A stretch of DNA of 64,000 bases from Sphingomonadales bacterium (lineage in GTDB: Bacteria > Pseudomonadota > Alphaproteobacteria > Sphingomonadales > Sphingomonadaceae), in contig JAIXWO010000022.1 in NCBI GenBank assembly GCA_027491235.1, positions 124,001 through 188,000 on the forward strand, in the 5' to 3' direction. Below the pieces are notes generated by a model. That model ran no database searches. It worked only from the letters and a program-made list of their open reading frames with translations, and had not been told where the DNA came from. A program made the translations under genes and the position numbers. The stretch's first letter is position 1. The number at the start of each line of letters is the position of its first letter. This document shows positions 7,020-48,464 of the stretch, piece after piece.

Positions 7020-7212
7020 CGCTGACAGCGCGGGAGAGAGGTTCGTTTAACGGACCCGCCGAAGGAGCAACCGCCCCGGAATCTCTCAGGCAAAAGGACC
7101 GCGCTGACATATGTGACACTCTGGAAAGAGTTCCAGCGAAAGCTGGAGCCGCCGAAGGGGTAACTCTGGATTTGATCCGGAGGAAAGCTCTCAGGTTCCC
7201 GTGACAGAGGGG
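7020..7212 (+). ncRNA. Tandem glycine riboswitch upstream of gcvT
   Basis: Two glycine aptamers are seen in a row. Aptamer 1 (about 7021-7108) has the hallmarks CGGGAGAG, CCGCCGAAGGAGCAA and CTCTCAGGCAAAAGGACCG. Aptamer 2 (about 7113-7212) has GAAAGAGTTCCAG, CCGCCGAAGGGGTAA and GCTCTCAGG, closing with GTGACAGAGGGGG. The tandem form with a short linker is the classical arrangement in front of glycine-cleavage operons, where glycine binding turns expression on. Between it and gcvT lies a further hairpin (GGTGC ... GCACC, 7217-7243) and the ribosome-binding sequence GTGGAG, so control may act on translation or on early termination. This is the 287-nt stretch between the MOSC gene and gcvT. Confidence 0.95.
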
Positions 7213-45267: not shown

Positions 45268-45564
45268 TCAGCGGCAGCGGCGCTTCCGGTCGAGCTCACG
45301 CCCGACCAAGGCGCCCGCTGCGGCACCCAATATAGTGCCTGTCCCACGTTCGCCGCGGGTATCGATCGCGCGCCCGAGTAATGCACCTCCGGCGGCCCCG
45401 ACGACAAGGCCAACCGTGCCATCCGATTTGCGGCAGTATATGCGCCCATCATCCCCACGCCATTCGCGGTAACGGTGCCCATCACGGGCTTCTGCAGGCG
45501 TCGCAATGGCCAATGTCGGCAGTGTCATAGCCGCGGCCGAAAATGTCAGAAATATCTTACGCAT
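45268..45564 (-). CDS. Exported glycine-zipper protein
   Basis: A 98-residue protein with a signal peptide (MRKIFLTFSAAAMTLPTLAIA) and a C-terminal pair of glycine-zipper segments (GLVVGAAGGALLGRAI and GTILGAAAGALVGREL). The mid part has Tyr/Arg-rich WRGDDGRIYCRKSDG with one Cys and a final RRCR. The glycine-zipper 2TM domain may span or sit in a membrane. No function is assigned. It converges on the enoyl-CoA hydratase gene. Confidence 0.8.
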   Translation of the reverse strand: MRKIFLTFSAAAMTLPTLAIATPAEARDGHRYREWRGDDGRIYCRKSDGTVGLVVGAAGGALLGRAIDTRGERGTGTILGAAAGALVGRELDRKRRCR

Positions 45565-45657: not shown

Positions 45658-46458
45658 TTATTGATCGCGTCGGGGTGGCCAGGGAATGAAGGAAGATGTG
45701 CGGCGCAGATAGGCGTCATAGTCCGGCCGGTTCTTCTTCAGGCGATGCTCCAGCATCGGCACGCCAGACACGCGCGTCAGCAGGAAGGTCAGGATCAGCG
45801 GCCCAATAATGGAATAGAGGCCCGCCGTTGTTTCCGCCGCGACCAGCCAAATGCCCCACCAGGTGCAGACATCGCCGAAGTAATTGGGATGGCGGGTGTA
45901 ACGCCATAGTCCCGTATCCAGAACTTTTCCGGCGTTGGCGGCATTGCCGCGGAATGCCGTGAGCTGCGCGTCGCCGATTGTTTCAAAAGCGATACCGGTG
46001 AGGGCGAGGGCAATCCCAATCCAGCCAAGGACGCCAATGGACGCCGGTTCCGCGGAAATCTGCCCCAATTGCGCGGGCAGGCAGACGAGAATGAGCAGTA
46101 CGCATTGCATGGCGAACACTTGCAGGAAGGAGGCTTTGGCAAAGCTCCAGCCCTTCTTGTCCATCAGGCGGCCGAGGATGGCGGCGTAACGGGGATCAAC
46201 CCCATGCCCACGCCAGCGTACGAAGAGGTGGAACGAAAGCCTGAGACCCCATAGGGCGGTCAGCGCCAGCAGGACGCCGCTGCGGACCGGCGAACCATCG
46301 GTCAGCAACGCTGTGGTGCCCGCGAGGATCACCATGCCCAATGGCCAAAAGGCATCAATGACGGACACGTCGCGGATGCGGACGCAATAGGCCCATAGCG
46401 CGGTCATGATGACGGCCAATATGACGAAGTTGGTCATGAGCAATTGGGGTGCGGTCAT
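45658..46458 (-). CDS. DUF1295 membrane protein (steroid 5-alpha-reductase-like)
   Basis: A 266-residue membrane protein with about six helices of the DUF1295 family, related to 3-oxo-5-alpha-steroid 4-dehydrogenase and isoprenylcysteine methyltransferase. The family C-terminus is clear: LWRYTRHPNYFGDVCTWWGI and LEHRLKKNRPDYDAYLRRT. The substrate is unknown. The first Met may be at 46458 or 46437. Confidence 0.88.
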   Translation of the reverse strand: MTAPQLLMTNFVILAVIMTALWAYCVRIRDVSVIDAFWPLGMVILAGTTALLTDGSPVRSGVLLALTALWGLRLSFHLFVRWRGHGVDPRYAAILGRLMDKKGWSFAKASFLQVFAMQCVLLILVCLPAQLGQISAEPASIGVLGWIGIALALTGIAFETIGDAQLTAFRGNAANAGKVLDTGLWRYTRHPNYFGDVCTWWGIWLVAAETTAGLYSIIGPLILTFLLTRVSGVPMLEHRLKKNRPDYDAYLRRTSSFIPWPPRRDQ

Positions 46459-46569
46459 TTCGTTTCTCCTCGGACACGCCTTTTTCTATGTTTTGAATCG
46501 CGCGCCGTTTCATCCACGATATCCCCGTTATCCACAGGTGCAACCATGCCATTTTGGTTTGACCGACTC

Positions 46570-46913
46570 AGCCGATCATGAGAGCCTTCACTCATAGCCG
46601 GAACAAACAGTTCCTTGAGAAATCAGGAACTTGAAGTGAAGGCTTCGCCCAAGCAGACAGGTGGCCGAGCGCAAGCGATGCAAACCGGAAGCAAGGGCAG
46701 GGTGTTCGCAAAGAGCTCCGTAACTCTGGCGCAAGCCATGTAGAAGCGGGATATCGGAGGGAACCCCGAGCGAACAGGAGGCCGCAAGGCAAATGTTCGC
46801 AAGCACGCAAAGGCGGTGCAGCAAGAAGCGGACCGGTCGCAAGACCAGAAGCAGGAAGCCAAACCAACGAGCGTAGTGAGGGCCGGCGGCAACGCTGGCC
46901 CTCATTTGCTTTT
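46570..46913 (+). ncRNA. Candidate structured non-coding RNA with multiple GCAA tetraloops
   Basis: The 520-nt stretch between DUF1295 and the GGDEF-EAL gene holds no convincing gene but is full of plus-strand hairpins. AGCCTTCACT (46583) pairs with AGTGAAGGCT (46635-46644), enclosing AGTTCCT/AGGAACT (46609-46615 with 46625-46631). GGC-GCAA-GCC is at 46728-46737. GCGAACA (46770) pairs with TGTTCGC (46794-46800), enclosing GCC-GCAA-GGC (46781-46790). GGTC-GCAA-GACC is at 46835-46846. An 11-bp stem closed by GCAA (46878-46903) is followed by ATTTGCTTTT, an intrinsic terminator. GNRA loops stabilise RNA only in this strand. The RNA family is not recognised; its 5' end is inferred. One alternative to test is an orphan HEARO/omegaRNA-like element. 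Confidence 0.75.
46878..46913 (+). terminator. Intrinsic terminator of the structured RNA
   Basis: GAGGGCCGGCG (46878-46888) pairs with CGCTGGCCCTC (46893-46903), including one G-T wobble, around a GCAA loop and before ATTTGCTTTT. It lies 66 nt upstream of the GGDEF-EAL start and ends the candidate RNA, which is why the RNA is unlikely to be just a 5' leader of that gene. Confidence 0.8.
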
Positions 46914-46979
46914 ACCGCCCGCGACTCTGTCCGCGCCCTGCGTATTTCCCGCAGGATTGTGCAAACGGGACGTTAACCA

Positions 46980-48464
46980 TTGTTGGTTACCTGCGGTTTT
47001 GTGACAGATCTCAGCGTCCTTCTTTCTGCCGTTTCTCCCATGGCCCTTGCTGTCCCGTTGCTGGCATCGGGTGTGGGTCTTCTGGCGATACGGCTGCGCA
47101 GCACGGCAAAGGAACTCGCGCGGCAGGGGGCCGAGGCCTCCTATCTCGCCCATCACGACATGCTGACCACGCTGCCAAATCGGAGCAAGCTGGAGGCCGA
47201 ACTGTTCGCGCTGGCGCAGCGCGGCACCAAATCGGGCGAGCGGCTGTCGGCCGCTGTCATAAATCTCGACCGGTTTAAGGACTTTAACGACACGCTTGGC
47301 CACCATGCGGGGGACAGCATTCTTCAGGGCGTCGCTTGTCGTCTGCGGAGTTGCTTGCCTGAGACGGATTTCGTGGCGCGGCTTGGTTCGGATGAATTTG
47401 CCGTCCTGCGGCATTGCGCAGCCCTTTCCGATGCAGACAGTCTCTCGCTCCAAATCATCGCAGCCTTCGCCGAGCCCTTTGACGTTAACGGCCATGCTTT
47501 TGACCTTTCGGCTTCGGTAGGTGTGGCGACGGCAACGTCAAATCGGGCGATGGAAGACCTGATCCGCGATGCTGACATTGCCATGCACGAGGCGAAAATC
47601 CGCAATCGCGGTGGTGTCATCCGCTTTGCCCCTGCCATGGCTGCGCAGATCGAAAGCCGCCGTGCGCTGGAAACGGATCTGCGACAGGCGATCTCCAGGG
47701 GGGAGCTTGTTCTCCATTATCAGCCGATCATTGATGCAGAGACAGGTCTGATCAGTTCGGTGGAAGCCCTGTTGCGCTGGACGTCGCCCAAGCATGGCAA
47801 TGTCCCGCCGGACATCTTCGTGCCGCTGGCTGAGAATTGCGGGCTGATGGCCGATATTGGACGGTATGTGATCGATCAGGCAGTGCAGGACAGCCGCCGC
47901 TGGCCGGGCATTACGACGGCGATCAACATTTCCGTCGTCCAGCTTAAATCCGCGTCGGTGCTGCAGGATCTTCTGGAGCCGACCCGCATTCACGGTGTGT
48001 CGCCAACCAACATCACACTGGAAATCACCGAGTCCATTCTTATGACGAATGATCCGCGCACATTGCGGACACTCGACATTCTGAAAGACCATGGCTTTGG
48101 CCTGTCGCTTGATGATTTCGGTACGGGCTATGCCAGCCTTGCCTACATCCGGGATTTTCCGTTCGATAAGCTCAAGATCGACCGCAGCTATGTGGCCGCG
48201 GTGGATAACAATGCGCGGGGAGCAGAAATGATCCGCGCCATCGTGGGCTTTGGCCGCATCCTTGGGCGCGAAATCATTGCGGAAGGGGTTGAGACCGAAG
48301 CCGAACTCGCCGTGATGAAAGACGTCGGTGTCTCCCACCTTCAGGGCTTTCTCTTTTCCCGTCCGATGGCCGCCGCCCATATCGAAGCGCTTGTTGCGGC
48401 GAGCGAAAGCCTGACGGACCTCCGCCCGACAGGTGTCCGCCCCGTTCTGCGCCGTGTGTCTTAG
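46980..48464 (+). CDS. GGDEF-EAL protein (c-di-GMP signalling)
   Basis: A 494-residue protein with one N-terminal membrane helix (PMALAVPLLASGVGLLAI), a GGDEF domain (about 60-220) and an EAL domain (about 230-480). The GGDEF signature is altered to FVARLGSDEFAVLR (GSDEF), and the DxxF/GD-type region reads LDRFKDFNDTLGHHAGD. The EAL domain appears intact: VEALLRW, INISVVQL, LEITES, LDDFGTGYASL, KLKIDRSYV and IAEGVETEAE. I expect phosphodiesterase activity, with cyclase activity uncertain. Start TTG 46980; GTG 47001 is an alternative. Its stop overlaps the convergent aldehyde dehydrogenase stop by 4 nt. Confidence 0.9.
   Translation: MLVTCGFVTDLSVLLSAVSPMALAVPLLASGVGLLAIRLRSTAKELARQGAEASYLAHHDMLTTLPNRSKLEAELFALAQRGTKSGERLSAAVINLDRFKDFNDTLGHHAGDSILQGVACRLRSCLPETDFVARLGSDEFAVLRHCAALSDADSLSLQIIAAFAEPFDVNGHAFDLSASVGVATATSNRAMEDLIRDADIAMHEAKIRNRGGVIRFAPAMAAQIESRRALETDLRQAISRGELVLHYQPIIDAETGLISSVEALLRWTSPKHGNVPPDIFVPLAENCGLMADIGRYVIDQAVQDSRRWPGITTAINISVVQLKSASVLQDLLEPTRIHGVSPTNITLEITESILMTNDPRTLRTLDILKDHGFGLSLDDFGTGYASLAYIRDFPFDKLKIDRSYVAAVDNNARGAEMIRAIVGFGRILGREIIAEGVETEAELAVMKDVGVSHLQGFLFSRPMAAAHIEALVAASESLTDLRPTGVRPVLRRVS

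Follow-up and report, generated by a model that had tools for sequence, protein, structure and literature searches.

What is encoded in the gap between a DUF1295 gene (45658-46458, minus strand) and a GGDEF-EAL gene (46980-48464, plus strand) of the 64,000-nucleotide (nt) stretch of Sphingomonadales DNA analyzed here (contig JAIXWO010000022.1 of GenBank assembly GCA_027491235.1, positions 124,001 to 188,000; referred to below as the window)? A sequence-only reading of this gap had proposed an unannotated structured RNA with a terminator of its own, and the proposal stands: the interval has no Rfam match at gathering thresholds, and promoter, terminator and tetraloop hairpins recur in its homologues, with helices that covary within genera. 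The interval 46594-46915 (+) is best read as the gene for a structured noncoding RNA of about 320 nt with its own promoter and intrinsic terminator, the transcription and start site of which we infer from the sequence. That it belongs to a real family of RNA genes is very probable. From its promoter, a tie between its transcription and replication or the cell cycle also appears probable, and the joint claim of a real family with such transcription is likewise probable, if slightly less so. The features of the locus are as follows.

46511-46587 (+): conserved promoter, from the homologue alignment
46511-46537 (+): three head-to-tail 9-mers, CATCCACGA TATCCCCGT TATCCACAG, resembling a DnaA-box array, the last overlapping TTATCCACA; from 12 gap-free homologous promoters
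46559-46564 (+): predicted -35 element TTGACC, at a conserved position and 17 bp from the putative -10 element
46565-46569 (+): GACTC, a GANTC motif (CcrM methylation) within the promoter spacer, invariant in homologue alignments
46582-46587 (+): putative weak -10 element GAGCCT, six bases before the conserved 5' end of the homologues
46594-46915 (+): structured noncoding RNA, predicted transcript of ~320 nt; 5' end from conserved homologue sequence, 3' end from the terminator
46636-46709 (+): helix 46636-46650/46695-46709 of 13 pairs, 8 of them with a pair-keeping change on both sides among 7 sequences
46728-46737 (+): GCAA-capped hairpin GGCGCAAGCC, from the sequence and the homologue alignment
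46770-46800 (+): 7-bp helix GCGAACA/TGTTCGC around the GCAA hairpin GCCGCAAGGC (46781-46790); 3 of 7 pairs with two-sided change, 95.9% of cells paired
46835-46846 (+): GCAA-capped hairpin GGTCGCAAGACC, GGTC-GCAA-GACC; 2 of 4 pairs with two-sided change
46876-46913 (+): intrinsic terminator, a G+C-rich GCAA-loop hairpin (~46876-46905) followed by a T-rich tract; from a terminator finder

In terms of local structure, the interval 46594-46915 contains five perfect GNRA-capped hairpins of at least 3 bp on the plus strand and none on the minus strand, against a mean of 0.27 in dinucleotide shuffles, none of 2000 of which reached five. The GCAA-capped stems that the sequence-only reading had placed at 46728-46737, 46781-46790 and 46835-46846 and in the terminator hairpin are all found there and exceed the chance level set by these shuffles. 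The folding energy of 46575-46915 corresponds to a z value of -5.9 for the plus strand and -2.7 for the minus strand.

Covariation was assessed within genera, with structures derived from the same alignments on which they are tested and with a shuffle control that keeps relatedness in (genomes are labelled G, fetched stretches L, genera g and families of the order f). In the g1 alignment, which holds 7 sequences and whose structure comes from RNAalifold, 26 of 76 pairs have changes on both sides and 93.4% of cells are paired; neither value is reached in 500 shuffles, and slid versions yield 2-7 pairs with changes on both sides. The g77 alignment (11 of the 21 g77 sequences) has two-sided change in 25 of 80 pairs and 95.6% of cells paired, with none of 500 shuffles reaching any of five measures and 4-10 two-sided pairs in slid versions. 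In g77, GAUCGGG/UCCGAUC closes a 5' domain of the RNA, and GCGCCG together with CGGCGC, the latter immediately ahead of the terminator, closes a central one. The covariation in homologues for which the sequence-only reading had asked is thus found, with covarying helices supported within two genera, g1 and g77, and not across genera.

The same alignments refine the fold proposed earlier. Both arms of the 7-bp stem at 46770-46800 are present, and GCGAACA covaries with the TGTTCGC at 46794 in the g1 alignment. The complementarity behind a 10-bp outer stem, 46583-46592 with 46635-46644, is likewise present; the stem itself is unsupported, because its left arm runs into the putative -10 element (46582-46587), ahead of the predicted start at 46594, and its right arm pairs downstream (46636-46650 with 46695-46709). 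Two copies of TGTTCGC, at 46703 and 46794, had suggested an alternative fold. Both exist, and a switch-like exchange between them is unsupported, since the first copy reads TGTTCAA in genome G050 and the second covaries.

Comparison with Rfam 15 reveals no family at the RNA above its gathering threshold, transfer-messenger RNA (tmRNA), RNase P RNA, signal recognition particle RNA, 6S RNA and HEARO included, which agrees with the earlier failure to recognize any of the first four and answers the HEARO question raised with it. Below threshold there are three matches: freshwater-2 on the opposite strand, Transposase-2, and ctRNA_p42d, which fits the terminator over 41 nt. At 17 homologous loci nothing reaches the gathering threshold at the RNA, the only hit being a serC leader elsewhere in stretch L087. 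The sole Rfam match in the window at the gathering threshold is a glycine riboswitch at 7021-7111 (+), with 76.5 bits.

Could the interval instead encode a protein? An open reading frame (ORF) of 105 amino acids on the minus strand (46588-46905) spans the RNA, and it is open throughout in genome G206 and over its middle in G050, as a small-protein mRNA or a minus-strand gene would predict. The ORF, however, has no Pfam match, contains one-base gaps relative to G050 and G185, and lacks any third-position excess of substitutions (13, 15 and 16 at codon positions 1, 2 and 3 relative to G050; 29, 34 and 28 relative to G185). Long antisense ORFs with differing sequences recur in other members of the family, as expected if a U-poor RNA leaves few antisense stop codons. 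We consider a coding role extremely improbable, and the earlier statement that there is no gene at this interval very probably holds for protein genes; long antisense ORFs across the RNA could mislead gene callers. The resemblance to Transposase-2 RNA, at 17.4 bits against a gathering threshold of 42.7, is what might be expected of a mobile-element relic, whether the omega RNA (HEARO) of IscB or TnpB or a degraded gene. Yet HEARO gives no match at its gathering threshold, and a genome search finds a single full-length copy of the RNA in its own genome. The five neighbours identified in the window, none of them a transposase, IscB or TnpB gene, encode proteins of the glycine-zipper, DUF1295, GGDEF-EAL, enoyl-CoA hydratase and Aldedh families. 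The window RNA has no plasmid match, a search of viral contigs with a single core-promoter pattern, which fits other members and not the window itself, finds nothing, and neighbours are shared within genera. An origin of this kind is hardly credible.

How widely the RNA occurs is not visible to plain sequence search. With blastn, 16 of 199 family genomes matched, and the body of the RNA matched in three only, namely its own genome, G050 (86% identity) and G185 (72%), with no body match beyond the genus; the 13 other matches are short and represent other terminators or unrelated DNA, except that L012 is the terminator of a true member. More diverged members of the genus match in promoter and terminator only (G201, G203) or in the promoter only (G127, G207), and a sequence pattern derived from the RNA matches a contig of Chakrabartia godavariana, a species of the window's genus. 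The promoter is the most conserved part of the locus and was absent from the sequence-only reading. As patterns, promoter sequences are too strict, the exact form being found in 8 of 397 family genomes and a form with up to three mismatches in 6 of 397 order genomes.

An alignment of twelve promoters, drawn from five genera, has no internal gaps over 78 positions, and a sequence-only model built from them (R1) has matches at E ≤0.05 in 120 of 298 family genomes, the weaker of which are not all this gene. Sixty regions, all around matches at 6e-4 or better, were then fetched; 13 more such places and the weaker ones, many of which match the box array only, were left out. They contain 64 R1 matches, of which L142 was excluded by eye (a dnaB gene was later recognized there); the other 63, together with L025, L026, L027 and L030, make up a set of 67 places, in the choice of which terminator, GNRA and UUCG hairpins, U content and covariation were not used. 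A second promoter model, R2, matches 55 of 247 order genomes at E ≤0.001, and among the matches listed all are in the window's family; further stretches were then added from two genera. Altogether, the promoter models point to 91 related places, which come from 86 genomes and 17 genera of Sphingomonadaceae and are contained in 87 stretches of 2.5-10 kb.

In the set of 67 places, the features left out of the selection support an RNA gene. Sixty-two places have an intrinsic terminator after the promoter, compared with 8 of 252 random control positions in the same stretches treated with the same finder, and the distance from the GACTC-based start to the terminator in the 62 is 282-810 nt (median 339.5), giving a family length of about 280-810 nt with ~320 nt in the window. 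The 67 bodies hold 165 GNRA hairpins in the sense strand, where 28 are expected, and 6 in the antisense strand, and 45 UUCG hairpins where 1.7 are expected; the two types together amount to 2.5 per 300 nt in bodies and 0.25 in control stretches. The U fraction is 0.11 in bodies and 0.18 in flanks, and lower in the body at 65 of the 67 places. Among k-mers in the bodies, CCGGAAG occurs 69 times against 10 expected and CGGAAG 153 times against 38, and most of the widest-spread k-mers are tetraloop-related or CCGGAAG-like. The strong sense-strand tetraloop enrichment and the covarying helices show selection on the RNA, and the comparison as a whole shows the layout of a transcription unit.

A core model, R3, extends the distribution by eight genera (g2, g5, g15, g43, g68, g73, g76 and g96). 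Of its 30 loci 18 were read, and 14 of these combine a terminator with two or more capped hairpins, L203 in g43 has two capped hairpins with no terminator found, and L201, L202 and L207 were judged false; in 16 of 39 genomes R3 has no match at E ≤1. In 38 genomes from genera and families that had seemed empty, R2 had given weak matches, several of them at dnaB or hemE/DUF299 promoters, and R3 later found the RNA in several of those genera. In 115 genomes across the class there are six matches besides that of the own genome, all weak (E up to 0.01). Four of these were read: two precede dnaB, a third is next to DUF299 and the last precedes a short gene. As to copy arrangement, the g22 stretches L084, L085 and L086 carry tandem RNA-promoter copies ~440-480 bp apart, and genome G186 (L087) carries two copies on opposite strands ~2.8 kb apart.

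In the window, the GGDEF-EAL gene (46980-48464) lies downstream of the RNA in the same orientation, and it is found in five g1 stretches, which raises the question of whether the RNA is a cis-regulatory leader or riboswitch of that gene. The gene is present in only 5 of the 87 RNA stretches, all from g1, which contributes nine stretches, and the terminator stands before it. A rough ORF caller assigns the nearest downstream ORF to the plus strand in 37 of the 67 places and to the minus strand in 29, and finds none in 1. Because neighbouring genes vary between genera and lie on either strand, the RNA is not a leader, and a riboswitch reading is scarcely tenable. Other neighbours are shared more widely. 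The glycine-zipper gene, at 45268-45564 in the window, recurs in 20 of the 87 stretches, from five genera, and a UvrD-like gene, so identified by reading of its sequence, occurs in 20 of 21 g77 stretches, a pattern that suggests vertical descent while the neighbours change. In G207 (L122 from ~4500; the same stretch is in L033), the gene of a DUF2497 protein, a family that we take to be PopZ, lies convergent to the RNA and just downstream of it.

What, then, would switch the gene on? The promoter consists of the three 9-mers, a -35-like element 21 bp further on, GACTC and a weak -10 element. Boxes of the DnaA type with at least 8 of 9 matches are present in 62 of the 67 places, a count inflated by the fact that most places were found with a model including the box, and GANTC is present in 65 of the 67, inflated in the same way since the places were chosen with a model including it. 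GACTC is invariant in all 12 sequences of alignment A2 and also in A9, whose 60 chosen sequences comprise L175, L176 and 58 of the 91 places, the latter selected to be diverse and most of them with GACTC. The gene for GcrA is present in all 38 genomes searched. As outlined in PMC3973325, a conserved GANTC in Caulobacter promoters marks genes affected by CcrM and indicates control by methylation.

Six g77 promoters without GANTC have CATAAC, CATAAA or CATATT as the -10 element, each with 4 of 6 matches to TATAAT, whereas the 15 with GANTC have a mean of 2.8 matches (rank test, P = 0.005), five of them having a better -10 element too. This trend fits an activator-dependent promoter that would have turned constitutive, but may stem from a small number of events. 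In the g77 stretches L112, L152 and L154-L158, GANTC is lost or moved and the -10 element is better. Compensating spacing between the -35 and -10 elements is not claimed, the correlation being -0.12 over 52 usable of 60 sequences. A similar array with GACTC stands upstream of dnaB in a distant alphaproteobacterium (genome G692; L159, from ~1763), and parts of a DnaA-box array are found before dnaB in others (L160, from G648, and L173, from G121) and beside hemE/DUF299. A DnaA-box array before dnaB may possibly represent a conserved type of replication promoter in Alphaproteobacteria.

A DnaA-box-like array also invites the view that the DNA itself is the functional element, a DnaA-titrating or replication-control site resembling datA or an origin, where it would be transcription as such that counts, with the RNA as a by-product. 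The chromosomal origin, oriC, is flanked by hemE and DUF299. Neither hemE nor DUF299 (Pfam Kinase-PPPase) is present in any of the 87 RNA stretches of 2.5-10 kb that hold the 91 places, the places added by R3 lying outside this test; both genes were sought with success in the sense that hemE/DUF299 was found in L162, L179, L180, L185 and L187, which are not RNA loci. With neither gene in the fetched stretches, the RNA locus is probably not oriC. The same absence, together with the sense-strand hairpins and covarying helices that mark selection on the RNA, makes a DNA site with an incidental transcript quite improbable.

Several observations weigh against the reading of the locus as a replication-timed structured RNA. 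On the structural side, a further-pair-types measure of the g1 alignment is reached by 11 of 500 shuffles, and other alignments are weak: g74 has 9 of 80 pairs with two-sided change and a slightly unfavourable covariation term, g85 has 4 of 109, and a second g77 group has 17 of 130. A 5'-stem test across the 67 places gives 0.48 against a background of 0.37 at one threshold, the folding energy of the 67 bodies is only modestly below that of shuffles (median z -1.7 sense, -1.3 antisense), and the body diverges fast enough to be alignable within genera only. Since places were chosen by their promoter, promoter conservation in them is partly built in. No copy is confirmed in g42, g78 or families f2-f8, where some weak matches were left unread. 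As for regulation, binding of DnaA and CcrM is read from sequence alone, and the trend between GANTC and the -10 element ignores shared ancestry.

With these points in mind, we propose that DnaA and GcrA/CcrM would time transcription of the RNA to chromosome replication, an idea that draws on the like module before dnaB in a distant relative. The RNA, which would act neither by translation nor as a leader, may be stable and may serve as a scaffold or sponge to which protein binds by way of the numerous capped hairpins and the U-poor, GGA-rich linkers; stability and the binding step are the weakest parts of the scheme. That it works by protein binding is a tentative suggestion. Equally tentative is the broader picture of a large RNA that is expressed in step with the replication machinery and forms a part of replication or cell-cycle control, for instance as a scaffold or sponge remade in each round, and we hold with similar reserve that its sequence is nearly free to drift while the chain of capped hairpins is kept. 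Also to be set against this proposal, CsrA, the obvious GGA binder, is found in 0 of 21 genomes, whereas 3 of 14 control genomes, E. coli included, are positive.

The main rival to protein binding is that the RNA is a replication-timed, trans-acting antisense RNA that would pair with the mRNAs of cell-cycle regulators, its unpaired linkers acting as seeds. RNAs from the same kind of setting provide precedent: CcnA is reported to act on the ctrA and gcrA mRNAs (outlined in PMC8959179), and EcpR1 to modulate cell-cycle regulation (as summarized in PMC4414408). Some widespread 7-mers of the bodies, among them CAGGCGA and AAGCGGA (13 of 17 genera each), are not explained by tetraloops. The tetraloop-related or CCGGAAG-like nature of most of the widest k-mers speaks for the other side, as do a length and hairpin arrays unlike those of a short seed RNA and the location of CcnA in oriC, whereas the RNA stretches tested lack hemE and DUF299. 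An antisense role is rather unlikely, and protein binding is the reading that we carry forward.

A literature search, which extended to neither supplementary files nor subscription papers, retrieved no account of an RNA of this kind, and an earlier notice is possible. The main text of a survey of noncoding RNAs in 50 genomes (PMC11109978) contains none of six sphingomonad or alphaproteobacterial words, and no such RNA was found in passages of PMC2864571, PMC4741004, PMC7566282 and PMC7987155. The family would thus add an RNA gene of 300-800 nt, present in at least two dozen genera of one family and without an Rfam match. Its promoter suggests a direct link from DnaA/CcrM control to a noncoding RNA, and the RNA may be an undescribed part of cell-cycle timing in sphingomonads. 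Promoter and terminator evidently allow a fast-diverging RNA to be followed beyond the reach of plain sequence search, and other such families may be hidden.

The architecture of the RNA is reminiscent of several known systems. The sponge RNAs CsrB and RsmZ consist of hairpin arrays with many GGA motifs, and the present RNA likewise has hairpin arrays and an excess of CGGAAG (153 observed, 38 expected), but CsrA, the partner protein, is found in 0 of 21 relatives. OLE, GOLLD, ROOL and raiA are several hundred nt long, have several domains and are encoded by genes of their own; they keep more sequence conservation, whereas the RNA described here diverges fast and it is promoter, terminator and hairpin style that persist. 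CcnA of Caulobacter is an alphaproteobacterial noncoding RNA tied to cell-cycle control, as outlined in PMC8959179; its place is in the origin and its activator is presumed to be CtrA, whereas the RNA studied here has DnaA-box and GANTC signals in its promoter and no hemE or DUF299 in the stretches tested. EcpR1 of Sinorhizobium is also an alphaproteobacterial RNA that acts on the cell cycle, and differs in being described as a trans-encoded small RNA, a comparison made by description only (PMC4414408). The closest counterpart on the side of the promoter is that of dnaB in L159, which has a similar array and a similar placement of GACTC; the module in the window, in contrast, would drive a noncoding RNA.
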